This document shows, piece after piece, positions 26,330-39,404 of a stretch of 42,092 nucleotides of DNA. Position 1 is the stretch's first letter, and each line of letters starts with the position of its first letter. The position numbers and the translations under genes are program-made. Location of the stretch: the IMG/VR virus record IMGVR_UViG_3300022821_000042, positions 1 to 42,092 of that record; one strand, given 5' to 3'. This DNA is from a virus. The notes beneath the pieces are model-generated. The model ran no database searches, was not told the origin of the DNA, and saw only the letters and a list, made by a program, of their open reading frames with translations.

Positions 26330-26835
26330 TTAATTAGATTGTTCTAGTCGACTTATAACTGCTTCTACGACATTTGATACAATGCCATTTCCTAGAGTCT
26401 TGTATCGCTGCGTATCACTTAGTCCCTCTGTCCAACCATCAGGGTAAGCCATCAAGCGTTCACATTCGAGAGGTGTTAGTCTGCGGATTCTTGATTCTTC
26501 TGGAATAAATGGTTGTCTGTTTCCTCCTTGTGCTGTGTTAAGTGTTGGACTTACTCCATCTGTTCCGTAGATTCTGTCGTTGGAGTGCTTTGGTTTGTTA
26601 AGCTGTCTAATATAGGTTTCGTTAGAGTGTCCATTTGAATAGTTTGTCCTGAGTGTGTTGCTATTAGACTTTGTGTCTGCTTGTCCGATAGGAAATACTT
26701 TTCGTCTGGGTTCTCCTCCAAGATGTCGCTTAGCGAACTCGTATTGTTCGTACCTTGTGGAAAGTTGAACGCCATCATTTTTATTTTTGGATTGCATAAT
26801 AGTTTTAGTTTAAGTTTATCTATTGAATTTGCCAT
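26330..26835 (-). pseudogene. C5 cytosine methyltransferase, C-terminal part, frameshifted
   Basis: Two frames together make the target-recognition and C-terminal part of a C5 methyltransferase. The upstream frame (26835 to about 26670) reads FNFPQGTNNTSSLSDILEE and YFLSDKQT. The downstream frame (about 26670 to 26330) reads SNTLRTNYSNGHSNETYIR, then motif IX (RRLTPLECERLMAYPDGW) and motif X (LGNGIVSNVVEAVI). Removing one of the two GT units at 26673-26676 restores a continuous frame. The part carrying motifs I-VIII is at 27236-28240, beyond an inserted HNH gene. The enzyme is probably inactive unless the pieces assemble. Confidence 0.75.
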
Positions 26836-27223
26836 ACTGATTGTTTCCTGTTGCGAACTTTCTAGCGTGTTCTGATTTTTTGTAAAGTTCTAGGTTAATA
26901 ATATCGTTGTTTGTTTTGTCATGGTCTATGTGATGTATGTCGTGGCTTGGTGGTATTTTACCATTGTGGTGTTCCCAAACATCTCGGTGCATCAGAGTTC
27001 TATCCCCATCGGTTCTCCCATAGTATCCATGGTTTTTTAAGGTGTACTTATTTCCGTTAAATACTAAAAAAGGTAGTGGCTTTTTCTTTCTTGGTTTATA
27101 ACCACGCCGAGAAAGTCCATTGTGGACAGTTTGTCTAGCCACGCCAAACATTCTACCAACTTCTGCCAAGGAAAAACCCTTTTTATATACCTCGTGCATT
27201 TCTTTATATTGTTCATTTTTCAT
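26816..27223 (-). CDS. HTH-HNH endonuclease splitting the methyltransferase gene
   Basis: The 135-residue protein has an N-terminal helix-turn-helix (FSLAEVGRMFGVARQTVHNG, about 16-35) and an HNH domain of the phage AP2-less type (HRDVWEHHNGKIPPSHDIHH, then DHDKTNNDIINLEL, about 75-112). It lies exactly between the methyltransferase motif VIII end (RVFIIGVRLDLLDE) and the segment FNFPQG that should follow, with no room for a ribozyme core. It is therefore an inserted free-standing homing gene. It starts 12 bases after the truncated upstream frame stops. Confidence 0.8.
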   Translation of the reverse strand: MKNEQYKEMHEVYKKGFSLAEVGRMFGVARQTVHNGLSRRGYKPRKKKPLPFLVFNGNKYTLKNHGYYGRTDGDRTLMHRDVWEHHNGKIPPSHDIHHIDHDKTNNDIINLELYKKSEHARKFATGNNQYGKFNR

Positions 27224-27235
27224 GTATTAAGTGTA

Positions 27236-28240
27236 TCAAAACACTTGACACTCGTCAAGTAAATCTAAACGCACTCCTATAATAAAAACCCTCATACGGT
27301 TCTGCGGAACACCAAAGTTCTTTGCATTAAGTACTTCAAAATCTATTGCGTAACCGCATCCGCAAAGTTCTTCACATATTCGTTCCATGCTTTTACCTCC
27401 ATCGTGGGAGAGAAGTCCCTTAACATTTTCTGCGAGAAAGTATTTAGGTTGTTTTGCTCTAAGTATGCGAGAATATTGAAACCACATATTTCCACGCTCA
27501 TCTTCAAATCCGCCTCTTTTTCCTGCAATACTCCAACTTTGACAGGGCACTCCACCGACAAGTAAATCAAAGTCTGGGAGTTCTTTAGCATTGATTGTTG
27601 TGATGTCTCCAAAATTGGTATGTGTTGGGAAATGTTTTTCATATATTTTAGTTGCATATTTATTTATCTCACTAAATCCTACGCAAATGGGGACATTCCC
27701 CATATCTTCCTCTTGCATTGTTGCAGTTGTAGCACAGAATTTCGTATTTTGATTTATTATTTTCTTTGAGTGCGAGTTGATACATATATCCTGTTCCGTA
27801 TTTTTTTCTGTCTTTATATCCATCTTGTCGTTTATGTTCAAGTGTGAGAAATTTTTCTTCTGACTCTCCACAACAGGCACATTTTCTTCCGTACATATCA
27901 AGGATTCTTTTTCTCCTTTTTTCGTTTTGTTCTCTTGTAATCTGTTTATATTTTTCTGGGTTTCTTTTTTTCCACCTTGAAACTGCCCCTTTATATTTTT
28001 CTGGGTTTCTTTTATATCTATCATTAGCTTCTTTTCTGGAACATTCTTTACATCTCCTTGTGTTTGTTCCTGAATTATAGAACTCTGATATATCTTTTGT
28101 TTTTTTACATTTTGGGCATTGTTTTTGCATATATCTATATTATCACAATTATTATTACTTTGCAAGTTAATCAACTCATATGCTTTTTGTATTCCTAATT
28201 CAAATCCACCTATGCCTGTAAATGTTGATAAGTATTTCAT
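27236..28240 (-). CDS. C5 cytosine methyltransferase, N-terminal part, interrupted
   Basis: The 334-residue frame begins with motif I (STFTGIGGFELG, residues 4-15) and later has GFSEINKYATKIYEKHF, the catalytic PCQ motif IV (GGVPCQSWSIAGKRGG), ENV motif VI (AENVKGL) and motif VIII (QNRMRVFIIGVR). Between about residues 38 and 185, where the family is continuous, sits a Lys/Asn-rich stretch with no family likeness. It is the read-through of an HNH gene in another frame. After motif VIII the frame ends in ECQVF where the next HNH gene was inserted. Motifs IX and X are downstream at 26330. Confidence 0.75.
   Translation of the reverse strand: MKYLSTFTGIGGFELGIQKAYELINLQSNNNCDNIDICKNNAQNVKKQKIYQSSIIQEQTQGDVKNVPEKKLMIDIKETQKNIKGQFQGGKKETQKNINRLQENKTKKGEKESLICTEENVPVVESQKKNFSHLNINDKMDIKTEKNTEQDICINSHSKKIINQNTKFCATTATMQEEDMGNVPICVGFSEINKYATKIYEKHFPTHTNFGDITTINAKELPDFDLLVGGVPCQSWSIAGKRGGFEDERGNMWFQYSRILRAKQPKYFLAENVKGLLSHDGGKSMERICEELCGCGYAIDFEVLNAKNFGVPQNRMRVFIIGVRLDLLDECQVF
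27672..28130 (-). CDS. HNH endonuclease nested inside the methyltransferase frame
   Basis: The 152-residue protein has an N-terminal zinc module (CPKCKKTKDISEFYNSG and CKECSRKEAND), YKRNPEKYK-type basic repeats (about 42-65), and an HNH-type nuclease end (CACCGESEEKFLTLEHKRQ and ILCYNCNNARGRYGECPH). It starts about 35 codons into the methyltransferase gene in a different frame, and its stop overlaps the methyltransferase GFSE codons. The host frame stays open right through it. There is no space for intron structure, so it inserted as a bare gene of frame-preserving length. Confidence 0.82.
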   Translation of the reverse strand: MQKQCPKCKKTKDISEFYNSGTNTRRCKECSRKEANDRYKRNPEKYKGAVSRWKKRNPEKYKQITREQNEKRRKRILDMYGRKCACCGESEEKFLTLEHKRQDGYKDRKKYGTGYMYQLALKENNKSKYEILCYNCNNARGRYGECPHLRRI

Positions 28241-28446: not shown

Positions 28447-29031
28447 TTAAAGTTTCTCCGTACAATCTAAACATATCCTCGATAATGAGTATTCATCTTC
28501 TTCGCCTAATTTGCCACATCCTAAACATCTTTCGTAGTTAATAAATTCTTCCTTCTGCTTATCTAGTTGTTGTTCAGATAGTGCATGATATGTTTTATGA
28601 CATTTAGGGCATAACCATATAACGAAAAGGGGTTTACTATAGTCCTGATGATGCCCATGCACTTTCTCATTGCCACAAAATAAGCATGGTTCTCGTTTCA
28701 ACTCACCAGACTTTACTGCCTTTTGCACCATAAGTCTAGCTTTGTCTTTTTCTGGGTAATCTTCTTTATTCTTTTTCATTCTATTGTATATTTTCTGTCT
28801 ATTGTTCTTATAATAATCTTTTATTTGGGATTCTCTTTTATCCTTATTCTTCTTGTAGTAATTTCTATCGTAATCCTGCCGTTCCTTGTATTGTCTGTCT
28901 AACCAGCTTTTTTCCTTTTTCTTCCCCTTATTAGCACCACCATATATACTATTTCTTTGTTCTGTGGTTAAGGTTTCGTGATGCTTTTTAATCCCAATGC
29001 TTATCCTTTCCCTAACTTCAGCACTTCTCAT
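28447..29031 (-). CDS. HNH-type endonuclease, free-standing
   Basis: The start is the ATG at 29031 with AAGGAG six bases upstream, a strong SD for this genome. The 194-residue protein has a Lys-rich helical N-terminal half and a nuclease core: PCLFCGNEKVHGHHQDYSK with the His pair, then VIWLCPKCHKTYH. A second small zinc pair follows (CLGCGKLG and ICLDCTEKL). This form of HNH is common in phages as free-standing homing enzymes. Its SD differs from neighbours, which fits acquisition from elsewhere. It overlaps the upstream gene by four bases. Confidence 0.75.
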   Translation of the reverse strand: MRSAEVRERISIGIKKHHETLTTEQRNSIYGGANKGKKKEKSWLDRQYKERQDYDRNYYKKNKDKRESQIKDYYKNNRQKIYNRMKKNKEDYPEKDKARLMVQKAVKSGELKREPCLFCGNEKVHGHHQDYSKPLFVIWLCPKCHKTYHALSEQQLDKQKEEFINYERCLGCGKLGEEDEYSLSRICLDCTEKL

Positions 29032-29273
29032 GATTTCTCCTTCTCCCAATCAGGGTTTTGTTCATCGTCACACACTTCACAATATATCTCCTCATGTACT
29101 CCGTGAATACATAGTGGACAACCCTCTCTGCGACAATTACTTGTACATTTGTGTCCGTTATTCTGGGCTTCATAACACTCCTTGCTACAATAGTTGTCTT
29201 CATAGCTTGCGACTAAGTCGGGTATAGTTGTATTACATTCTTTACATTTCTTTTGTTCTTCTTGTTTAGTCAT
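29028..29273 (-). CDS. Cys-rich zinc-binding protein
   Basis: I start at the ATG at 29273 (MTKQEEQKKC); an earlier TTG is less likely. The 81-residue protein has about a dozen Cys and His residues in several pairs (CKEC, CSKEC, CTSNC, CPLC, CEVC), enough for two or three zinc sites. It overlaps both neighbours slightly. Structure resembles tandem treble-clef fingers. The function is unknown, most likely nucleic-acid or protein binding in the early program. Confidence 0.65.
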   Translation of the reverse strand: MTKQEEQKKCKECNTTIPDLVASYEDNYCSKECYEAQNNGHKCTSNCRREGCPLCIHGVHEEIYCEVCDDEQNPDWEKEKS

Positions 29274-29418
29274 AGGGTTCAAATAATTTTTTAGCTTTAA
29301 GATATTGTTTGTAGCAACTCCAGTATCCTTTCTTCTTCATTCTATGATAGCGATCAAGTGGAGAGTTTATTTTATTGACTTGTTTTCTTTCGCCACATGC
29401 AGGGCAGGTTGTCATCAT
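29266..29418 (-). CDS. Small zinc-finger protein (50 aa)
   Basis: The start is the ATG at 29418, which overlaps the upstream stop in ATGATGA, a coupling arrangement; longer frames run through the neighbour. The 50-residue product starts MMTTCPACGERKQVN and has a basic middle and a single further Cys (WSCYKQYLK). It may bind zinc with partner residues or as a dimer. No function can be assigned. Confidence 0.55.
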   Translation of the reverse strand: MMTTCPACGERKQVNKINSPLDRYHRMKKKGYWSCYKQYLKAKKLFEPYD

Positions 29419-36908: not shown

Positions 36909-39404
36909 ATGCAAAAAGTAAAGTTTTCAGAACTTGCTAAGTTTTTCCCAAAGCAACTCGAAGCGAGTAAAGCTGCTTCCTCCCATAAATTCACACTATA
37001 TGGCGGAGCTATGGGAGGGGGAAAACTATTAAGACTTAATGAGGATATACCAACTCCCAATGGATGGATAAAAAATAAAGATATTATTGTTGGTGACTAT
37101 GTATTAGGTGAAAATGGGAAACCCGTCATGGTTATGGGTGTTACTGAACCAACAGAGGATGAAGCATACGAATTGTTTTTCTCTGATGGAACATCAATGA
37201 TTGCTGGACAAAGTCATCTATGGAAGACGATGACTATTCGAGAAAGAGGAATAGCATCTAGGCGAAATGATGTATATCGACTCAAAAGAAAACAAACAAG
37301 AGTAAAGCTAGGTACTGGTAAACGACCAGATCTTGCAATACTGAATACAAAACGTACCTTTAATTATTTAGAACCCTCGACTGGGACAATAAGAACCACG
37401 AAAGAAATAGCTGAAACCGTATTAGTTGATGGTAATAATAATCACTCTATAGAACAACCAGAGCCATTAGTATTGCTAGAGAAGAATCTACCGATTTCCC
37501 CTTATACACTTGGTGCTTGGCTCGGTGATGGAACCTCAATCAGTGGTGGTATAACTGGGATTGATAAAGAGATTTTTGAAAATATAGAGAGAGATGGGTT
37601 TACTGTCACTCATCATGCTAATATAAAATCACACAATATTACTGGTTTTATTGGATTGATTCGTAAATATGGATTGTATAGAAATAAGCATATACCGAGT
37701 GAATATTTAAGAGCTTCGCATAATCAGCGATTGGCACTTTTGCAAGGGGTTATGGATACAGATGGTTGGTGCGATAAAGACGGTGGTATAGGAATAACAC
37801 TTAAAGATAAACGGTTATTTGAGAATGTAGTAGAATTGATTAGAACATTTGGCATCGTTGTTCATACTTCATTGGTGGAAAAGACGTGTTACAACAATGG
37901 TAAGATAGGAATGTATCATAATGCTAAGTTTATAACTACCATCCCAGTATTCCGTTTAAGCAGGAAAGTGTCTCGACAAAAACATAAGATTAATTCTAGA
38001 AATAACAGGCGATATATCGTCGATGTACAGTTAGTTGGTAAACAGAAGATGAGGTGTATACAGATTGCAAACCATGATGGAATGTATATTGCTGGCAAGC
38101 AGTTTATACCAACTCATAATAGCTATTGGATACGTTGGCATGTAGCTGAGTATCTATTAGAGAAAACAATTGAAACTGGATTAAAAGGAATTGTAGGAGG
38201 TATATTCTGCGAGGATTATCCAGCATTAAAAGATAGACACCTTTCAAAACTAACATTTGAGTTCCCGGAATGGTTGGGAGATTTCCACGCAGATCATAAA
38301 CAGTACGGAAAAGCATTCATTGCCAAGCCACAATATGGTAGTTGGGTAATAGTATTTCGTAACCTAGATGATCCTAGTAAGTATAAATCAGCAGAATTTG
38401 CCATTATTGCAGTAGATGAGCTTACTATGAACTCAAAAGACAAGTTTGATTTCCTTAGAACGCGTCTCAGGTGGCCGGGTGTCACTGATGTACGCTTCAT
38501 TGCAGGAACAAATCCCGGTGGAATAGGGCATGGTTGGGTTAAACAATTATGGATGGATCGAGTCTTTGAAGAGACAGAGAAGGAAGCAGATCAATTTATA
38601 TTCGTTCAATCTAAAGCAGATGACAATCCCCTACTTAATAAGAGCTACTATGACTCATTAGATGGCTTACCAGAATCAATGCGTAGAGCATTCAAAGATG
38701 GTAATTGGGATGTATTTGAAGGACAAGCATTCACTGATTGGAACCAAAGTAAAGTAGTTGTAAAGCCTGAAGACATGCCGATCGAAGCTGAATATGAGAA
38801 GTTTATGTGCTTTGACTACGGTTTCACAGCTCCGGGTGCATTATACTGGTGTGCAATAGATTACGAAGGTAACATAATTGTATACAGAGAGATCTACAGC
38901 ACTGGGAAGACTTACAAAGATTGGGCTGAAGACGCTAGAGACTACTCAGGATTCACAGAGACAGAAGACCCATCACGACGTGAAGCAATCAAATACATAG
39001 TAGTTGGAGTAGATTCATTCAAGAAGAACGAACAAACGCGCAAGAGTGGTGTCGAAGTAATGCGAACAATATTCCCCATACGCTATGAACAAGCATATAC
39101 AAACAGACATCAAGGTAAGATTGAGTTCCATCAACGCTTAAAAGGCCCAACAATATTCTTCTGGAACACTTGTAAAGAAGCAATCAGAACAATACCAGAA
39201 CTCATTACAGACAAGCATGACATTGAAGATGTTGATTGTGGAGAGGATCACGCCTATGACTCGATACGATACGGAATGATGAGCAGACGTATCAAGACTA
39301 AATCAGCTGCACCACTTGATCCAGTACAACAGAAGTTCGAAGAATGGAAGAGAAAGGATAGAGATTTTGCTAGTAAGACTAATAAACGTTTCCGCTCACT
39401 ATAA
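36909..39404 (+). CDS. Terminase large subunit containing an intein
   Basis: The precursor is 831 residues. Residues 1-39 and 405-831 are the extein, a 466-residue terminase ATPase-nuclease. Walker A (GGAMGGGK then S405) is split by the intein. Walker B and catalytic acids are in FAIIAVDEL (about 496-504), the coupling motif in FIAGTNPGG, and RNase H-type nuclease acids in CFDYGF (about 633-638), VVGVDSF and a C-terminal DSIRYGM. The enzyme translocates and cuts concatemeric DNA into procapsids. Activity needs splicing, as the P-loop is otherwise broken. It overlaps the next gene by one base. Confidence 0.93.
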   Translation: MQKVKFSELAKFFPKQLEASKAASSHKFTLYGGAMGGGKLLRLNEDIPTPNGWIKNKDIIVGDYVLGENGKPVMVMGVTEPTEDEAYELFFSDGTSMIAGQSHLWKTMTIRERGIASRRNDVYRLKRKQTRVKLGTGKRPDLAILNTKRTFNYLEPSTGTIRTTKEIAETVLVDGNNNHSIEQPEPLVLLEKNLPISPYTLGAWLGDGTSISGGITGIDKEIFENIERDGFTVTHHANIKSHNITGFIGLIRKYGLYRNKHIPSEYLRASHNQRLALLQGVMDTDGWCDKDGGIGITLKDKRLFENVVELIRTFGIVVHTSLVEKTCYNNGKIGMYHNAKFITTIPVFRLSRKVSRQKHKINSRNNRRYIVDVQLVGKQKMRCIQIANHDGMYIAGKQFIPTHNSYWIRWHVAEYLLEKTIETGLKGIVGGIFCEDYPALKDRHLSKLTFEFPEWLGDFHADHKQYGKAFIAKPQYGSWVIVFRNLDDPSKYKSAEFAIIAVDELTMNSKDKFDFLRTRLRWPGVTDVRFIAGTNPGGIGHGWVKQLWMDRVFEETEKEADQFIFVQSKADDNPLLNKSYYDSLDGLPESMRRAFKDGNWDVFEGQAFTDWNQSKVVVKPEDMPIEAEYEKFMCFDYGFTAPGALYWCAIDYEGNIIVYREIYSTGKTYKDWAEDARDYSGFTETEDPSRREAIKYIVVGVDSFKKNEQTRKSGVEVMRTIFPIRYEQAYTNRHQGKIEFHQRLKGPTIFFWNTCKEAIRTIPELITDKHDIEDVDCGEDHAYDSIRYGMMSRRIKTKSAAPLDPVQQKFEEWKRKDRDFASKTNKRFRSL
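37026..38120 (+). mobile_element. Class 3-type intein with LAGLIDADG endonuclease
   Basis: Residues 40-404 of the precursor form a 365-residue intein inserted after the P-loop Lys. The first residue is Leu, not Cys or Ser. W105 (SHLWKT), C383 (MRCIQI) and T402 (IPTHN) make the WCT triplet of class 3 inteins, in which the internal Cys attacks first. The C-terminal HN and Ser+1 are intact. A two-motif LAGLIDADG domain lies at about 201-210 (LGAWLGDGTS) and 277-287 (LLQGVMDTDGW), so the element is probably still mobile. Confidence 0.88.

Follow-up and report, generated by a model that had tools for sequence, protein, structure and literature searches.

A gene for an HNH endonuclease lies within the reading frame of a C5-cytosine methyltransferase (MTase) in a tailed-phage genome, and both frames are open over the same DNA. 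This double open frame recurs in four MTase lineages at two insertion sites, where stop codons are avoided specifically in the MTase frame and where the HNH protein and the MTase flanks show purifying selection. Judging from sequence comparisons, a homing-type HNH gene probably persists within the coding sequence by overprinting and is 'transparent' to the host MTase frame, a reading to which we assign a probability of about 0.82. The endonuclease would be expressed from its own frame and would move by homing, and selection would keep the MTase frame (HNH +1) free of stops. Ribosomes starting at the MTase ATG would read through the nested gene and yield an MTase with a long disordered loop, which would presumably be active, and neither RNA nor protein splicing would be required.

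Organisation of the methyltransferase locus

The window, that is, the whole stretch of 42,092 nt that was analysed, is a tailed-phage record with a terminase at 36909-39404, and its MTase gene lies in pieces on the minus strand (Table 1). The alpha ORF matches PF00145 with E = 1.5e-59, and motifs I, IV (PCQ), VI (ENV), VIII (QNRxR), IX and X, spread across the alpha and beta ORFs, identify the product as a C5-cytosine MTase. The motif VIII sequence is QNRMR in both the window and L003, a near-identical genome, but QNRER in nearly all relatives.

The insert is situated between motif I and the CVGFSE block, contains no MTase similarity and has a composition of K 15%, N 13.5% and Q 10% when read in the MTase frame. 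An earlier note on this DNA had described an HNH gene nested within an open MTase frame, with an insertion that is a multiple of three, stop-free over about 150 codons and rich in Lys and Asn. These features are borne out: the HNH ORF (28130..27672) is contained entirely in the alpha ORF (28240..27236) in a different frame, and the insert comprises 163 open codons. The host frame does resume as the note had claimed, but not exactly at GFSEINKY, since homology restarts a few codons earlier, at P-I-CVGFSEINKY. The TAG stop codon of the nested gene falls in the MTase codons for GFSE.

Table 1. Features of the MTase locus in the window
Feature	Coordinates	Strand	Description
C5-cytosine MTase alpha ORF	27236..28240	-	334 aa, motifs I-VIII, open through insert; PF00145
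5' MTase segment: start codon and motif I (MKYLSTFTGIGGFELGIQKAYE)	28175..28240	-	Kept in all nested and empty relatives
Insert in MTase frame	27686..28174	-	163 stop-free codons, hydrophilic, loop hypervariable in relatives
Spacer preceding HNH start	28131..28174	-	MTase frame open; several stops in HNH frame
Nested HNH endonuclease gene	27672..28130	-	152 aa, ATG start; MTase frame = HNH +1; phrog_2255 E=1.5e-16
MTase alpha after insert	27236..27685	-	CVGFSE..PCQ..ENV..QNRMR..GVRLDLLDECQVF*
Second HNH gene (HNH_3)	26816..27223	-	PF13392 E=2e-15; splits MTase between motif VIII and target-recognition region
MTase beta ORF	26330..26797	-	Target recognition, motifs IX-X; separate polypeptide

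Recurrence of the nested gene at two sites

Close relatives of the HNH gene are few in IMG/VR, and only four nested lineages were found there: the window with L003, L004-L006, L007/L032 and L009. The HNH homologues of the three further phage lineages are 48-62% identical and occupy two sites in the MTase. Site A, the one used in the window, also carries the gene in L004-L006; site B (EKHF..HK|NFGDIT), located further along the MTase, carries it in L007/L032 and L009. All nested copies have the MTase frame at HNH +1, and the stops in the insert frame of homologues that the earlier note had named as evidence against its reading are absent from L003, L004-L006, L007/L032 and L009 (zero in each). 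In the last three of these lineages nothing else interrupts the MTase, which is encoded as a single chain of 457, 457 and 525 aa, respectively. A start of the MTase downstream of the insert, the other possibility that the note had raised, is rejected: every nested lineage has the start and the conserved motif I ahead of the insert, and initiation beyond it would leave the enzyme lacking its SAM-binding motif.

With regard to further searches, a genome scan added one nested copy, L032 in a Scalindua bin, which encodes MTase and HNH proteins identical to those of L007. A DNA-pattern scan added 11 distinct HNH genes to the controls and no further nested copy, a search with the site-B 5' spacer pattern recovered only the two known loci, and a plasmid search gave one distant match. 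The nested rows are distributed over separate clades of the MTase tree, which requires four changes, at least three of them forced by well-supported branches; this distribution fits horizontal movement or repeated loss.

Stop avoidance in the host frame

The openness of the host frame had been called unlikely by chance, and for random DNA of the window's composition it is (P = 4e-6 over 152 codons). The HNH protein itself already lowers the stop count, and for this reason the composition-only null was replaced by synonymous resampling, in which the protein is held fixed and its codons are redrawn by the phage's own usage. Under this fairer null 4.0 stops are expected in the window and 0 observed (P = 0.004), so the claim keeps only moderate strength when taken alone; the third frame over the nested gene contains 16 stops. 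The window's own value is suggestive, not decisive, and it is the comparison across lineages that decides.

Codon resampling across the four nested lineages gave P =.004,.003,.0008 and.0006, values which, like the leucine comparison below, are not fully independent, the lineages being related. When only the codons that differ between neighbouring lineages were redrawn, a conservative procedure, the combined P was 3.7e-8. The controls outside MTases comprised 24 genes: L008, which is the closest non-nested relative, 12 distant relatives at other loci and the 11 from the pattern scan. At least one stop in the +1 frame was present in 23 of them, with eight in L008. The sole stop-free control, L129 from Arthrobacter phage Glenn, has a GC content of 60% and an unrelated locus (2.8 stops expected, P = 0.019). 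Stop-free frames thus occur in 4/4 nested lineages against 1/24 controls (2.4e-4). The contrast between nested homologues and those outside MTases supports, at the level of sequence, the proposal made in the earlier note that selection keeps the frame open so that the enzyme can be made.

Codon choice appears to be shaped accordingly. A stop in the HNH +1 frame results when NTA is followed by A/G or NTG by A, and the Leu codons of the nested genes that precede A/G are CTT/CTC in 21 of 21 instances, even though TTA/CTA are common in these phages. Before C/T, by contrast, NTA/NTG are used in 9 of 11 (Fisher 2e-6 against the A/G context, a figure overstated because Leu sites are shared by descent). 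No such context-specific choice is seen in L008.

These observations bear on the rival view that the HNH insertion inactivated the MTase and that the open frame is luck, aided by a Lys-rich, Leu-poor HNH protein. A P of 0.004 for the window alone is large enough to matter when a genome is scanned, these AT-rich MTase genes do contain long spurious ORFs in alternative frames, and in the window a second HNH gene splits the MTase as well. Luck is nonetheless unlikely and already strongly disfavoured, given the complete lack of stops in four diverged lineages, across two sites, when controls have stops, the dependence of Leu codons on context, and the conservation of the MTase flanks and of motif I upstream of the insert.

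Identity and putative mobility of the nested HNH gene

Membership of the HNH family is indicated by profile matches to phrog_2255 (E=1.5e-16) and phrog_1035 and by the invariant Cys, E98-H99 and C133..NCNN (alignment A1); the Pfam Endonuclease_7 score is 22.4, slightly below the cut-off of 23.6. A fold search with a model of the protein (pLDDT 71) returned nothing below E=0.1, the best match being an HNH nicking enzyme at 0.61. RNPEKYK is coded twice in the N-terminal half of the nested gene and not in L004, a length change that preserves both frames. As for expression signals, no clear ribosome-binding site was found for the nested gene, and a promoter scan gave nothing above chance; a TGnTATACT motif located directly before the HNH start at site B is no more than suggestive.

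Among solved structures, sequence comparison matches only the HNH restriction enzyme PacI, and that very weakly (E = 0.19). Together with the joint occurrence of HNH and MTase in four lineages, this match could point to a nested restriction-modification pair, in which the gene of the restriction enzyme sits within that of the MTase that protects against it and the overlap would persist because it couples the two. Such a pair would be very unlikely in view of the relatives, since L008 adjoins terminase genes without an MTase and the distant relatives stand alone as phage HNH genes, as seen next to DNA polymerase I or between the two ribonucleotide reductase genes; moreover, many MTases lack the HNH gene and two different insertion sites are used. 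The patchy presence on the MTase tree, the two sites and the solitary relatives point, only indirectly, to a putative mobile, homing-type HNH gene.

Selection on each frame and possible tolerance of the insert

The two frames differ in the constraint that they appear to experience. Between nested and empty relatives, dN/dS of the MTase after the insert is 0.05-0.2; the HNH frame gives ~0.2-0.3 or saturated synonymous sites, and the insert read in the MTase frame gives ~1 or above, all of these being rough ratios that ignore the interplay of the two frames. Peptide identity follows the same order, at 34-56% for the insert in the MTase frame against 52-73% for the HNH protein. On these comparisons purifying selection acts on the HNH frame and on the MTase flanks, and the MTase-frame insert peptide evolves as if neutral. 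Both members of the overprinted pair thus bear marks of selection, the HNH gene by dN/dS and the MTase by stop avoidance and conserved flanks. A dN/dS of ~1 combined with low peptide identity suggests that selection requires only openness of the insert in the MTase frame.

The site seems suited to length change. Among ~70 phage MTases, motif I and VGGxPCQ are 51 to 126 residues apart; the hydrophilic loop at site A accounts for nearly all of this variation, and the nested genes lengthen the distance to 183-244. AlphaFold modelling of the L004 MTase predicts an intact core (above 90) in which helix A and strand 2 flank a disordered insert (below 50 for residues 58-144); the shallow alignment of the insert, with few sequences, may account for part of this disorder. 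A recurrent type of site-A loop, RGG.E.T..EGQ....E..STT.RP.SE, is found in different phages (L015, L021, L049, L066 and L111).

Selection could also act on the insert peptide itself, as a functional part of the enzyme, and its conserved openness would be expected on that basis. The low peptide identity relative to the HNH protein, the dN/dS of ~1 or above and the predicted disorder of the insert make this highly improbable.

Relation to known gene-in-gene arrangements

Inteins and group I introns house homing endonuclease genes in host genes without destroying them. The present case resembles both in having an endonuclease gene inside a host gene and differs in that no RNA or protein splicing was found. 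Removal or skipping of the insert as an intron, as an intein or by ribosome bypassing, all known ways for an endonuclease gene to reside within a gene, has next to no probability: an Rfam search up to E = 1 gave no group I/II intron match, the HNH gene fills nearly the whole insert, so that an intron core would not fit, no motifs for splicing were recognised, and there would be no need to select for openness. An intein was rejected, as the HNH gene lies outside the host frame, whose insert begins LINLQS and ends NVPI.

Overprinting of a homing-type gene, the preferred reading, has partial parallels elsewhere. Free-standing homing endonucleases are known to split genes, as do mobE in Aeh1 nrdA and mobA in T4 gene 60 (PMC2988022). 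There, too, an HNH gene interrupts the coding region for a phage enzyme whose function is apparently retained, but the host gene is cut into separate chains, whereas the host frame is continuous across the first HNH gene of the window. Rickettsia palindromic elements are mobile DNA inserted in frame in genes and translated within the host protein (PMC10969869). They share the in-frame mobile insertion that becomes part of a host protein, yet they span ~150 bp and their ORF is the host-frame peptide, unlike the full endonuclease gene in another frame described here. Fungal mitochondrial rps3 is fused in frame to a LAGLIDADG endonuclease (PMC7902536), likewise joining an endonuclease to a host coding sequence, in a single frame there and in two frames over the same DNA here.

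In the open-access literature we found no description of an endonuclease gene that doubles, in another frame, as coding sequence of its host gene, and no paper combining 'homing endonuclease' and 'overprinting'. Selfish endonuclease genes are known within genes through introns, inteins and host-gene splitting; here the route would be overprinting without splicing, in which the same DNA appears to code for a working endonuclease and a harmless linker of the host enzyme. Overprinting would here have a clear natural example with a simple selective reason, namely to avoid stops and nothing else, and the replicate lineages, the relatives with empty sites and the non-nested controls make the system a test bed. 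More tentatively, and with somewhat less than even odds in our view, 'frame-transparent' endonuclease genes could constitute a distinct way of living in genes. Such an element would carry a permanently open +1 frame, take its stop codon from host sequence at the junction and move between coding sites without splicing or breaking the host gene.

Fission of the methyltransferase by the second HNH gene

The mobE and mobA situation has an exact counterpart in the second HNH gene of the window. In L014-L019 the MTase breaks at the same point, after (G)xRLDLLDxCQ[VI]F* or near variants, and a restart of the C-terminal part of the MQSKNKN.. type is present in most of these and, from a fragment, in L020. 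The same break with conserved new ends in diverged phages indicates that the fission is old and presumably functional, and the HNH_3-split MTase of L014-L020 looks like an old functional two-chain enzyme. Because of this second, older insertion, the MTase of the window works, if at all, as two chains. The same window gene thus displays both outcomes, fission by HNH_3 and transparent overprinting by the first HNH gene. A terminator-like hairpin (27242-27261) spans the last codons of the alpha ORF (LDECQ), directly before the second HNH gene.

Additional observations

Another HNH-like ORF, with cysteine pairs and without a Pfam match, lies directly upstream of the MTase in the window (28447-29049). 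The window and L003 show all six differences of 5.6 kb within 19 MTase bases (27431-27449 against 4682-4700 in L003), a cluster for which a small conversion patch and an assembly effect are alternatives. Furthermore, a 183-base segment of L003 (2673-2855) with a small zinc-finger-like ORF is absent from the window near 29250-29275. The large terminase gene contains an apparent intein with a LAGLIDADG domain at 37026-38120 (residues 40-404, ending THN|S), the first residue of which is Leu, an unusual choice.
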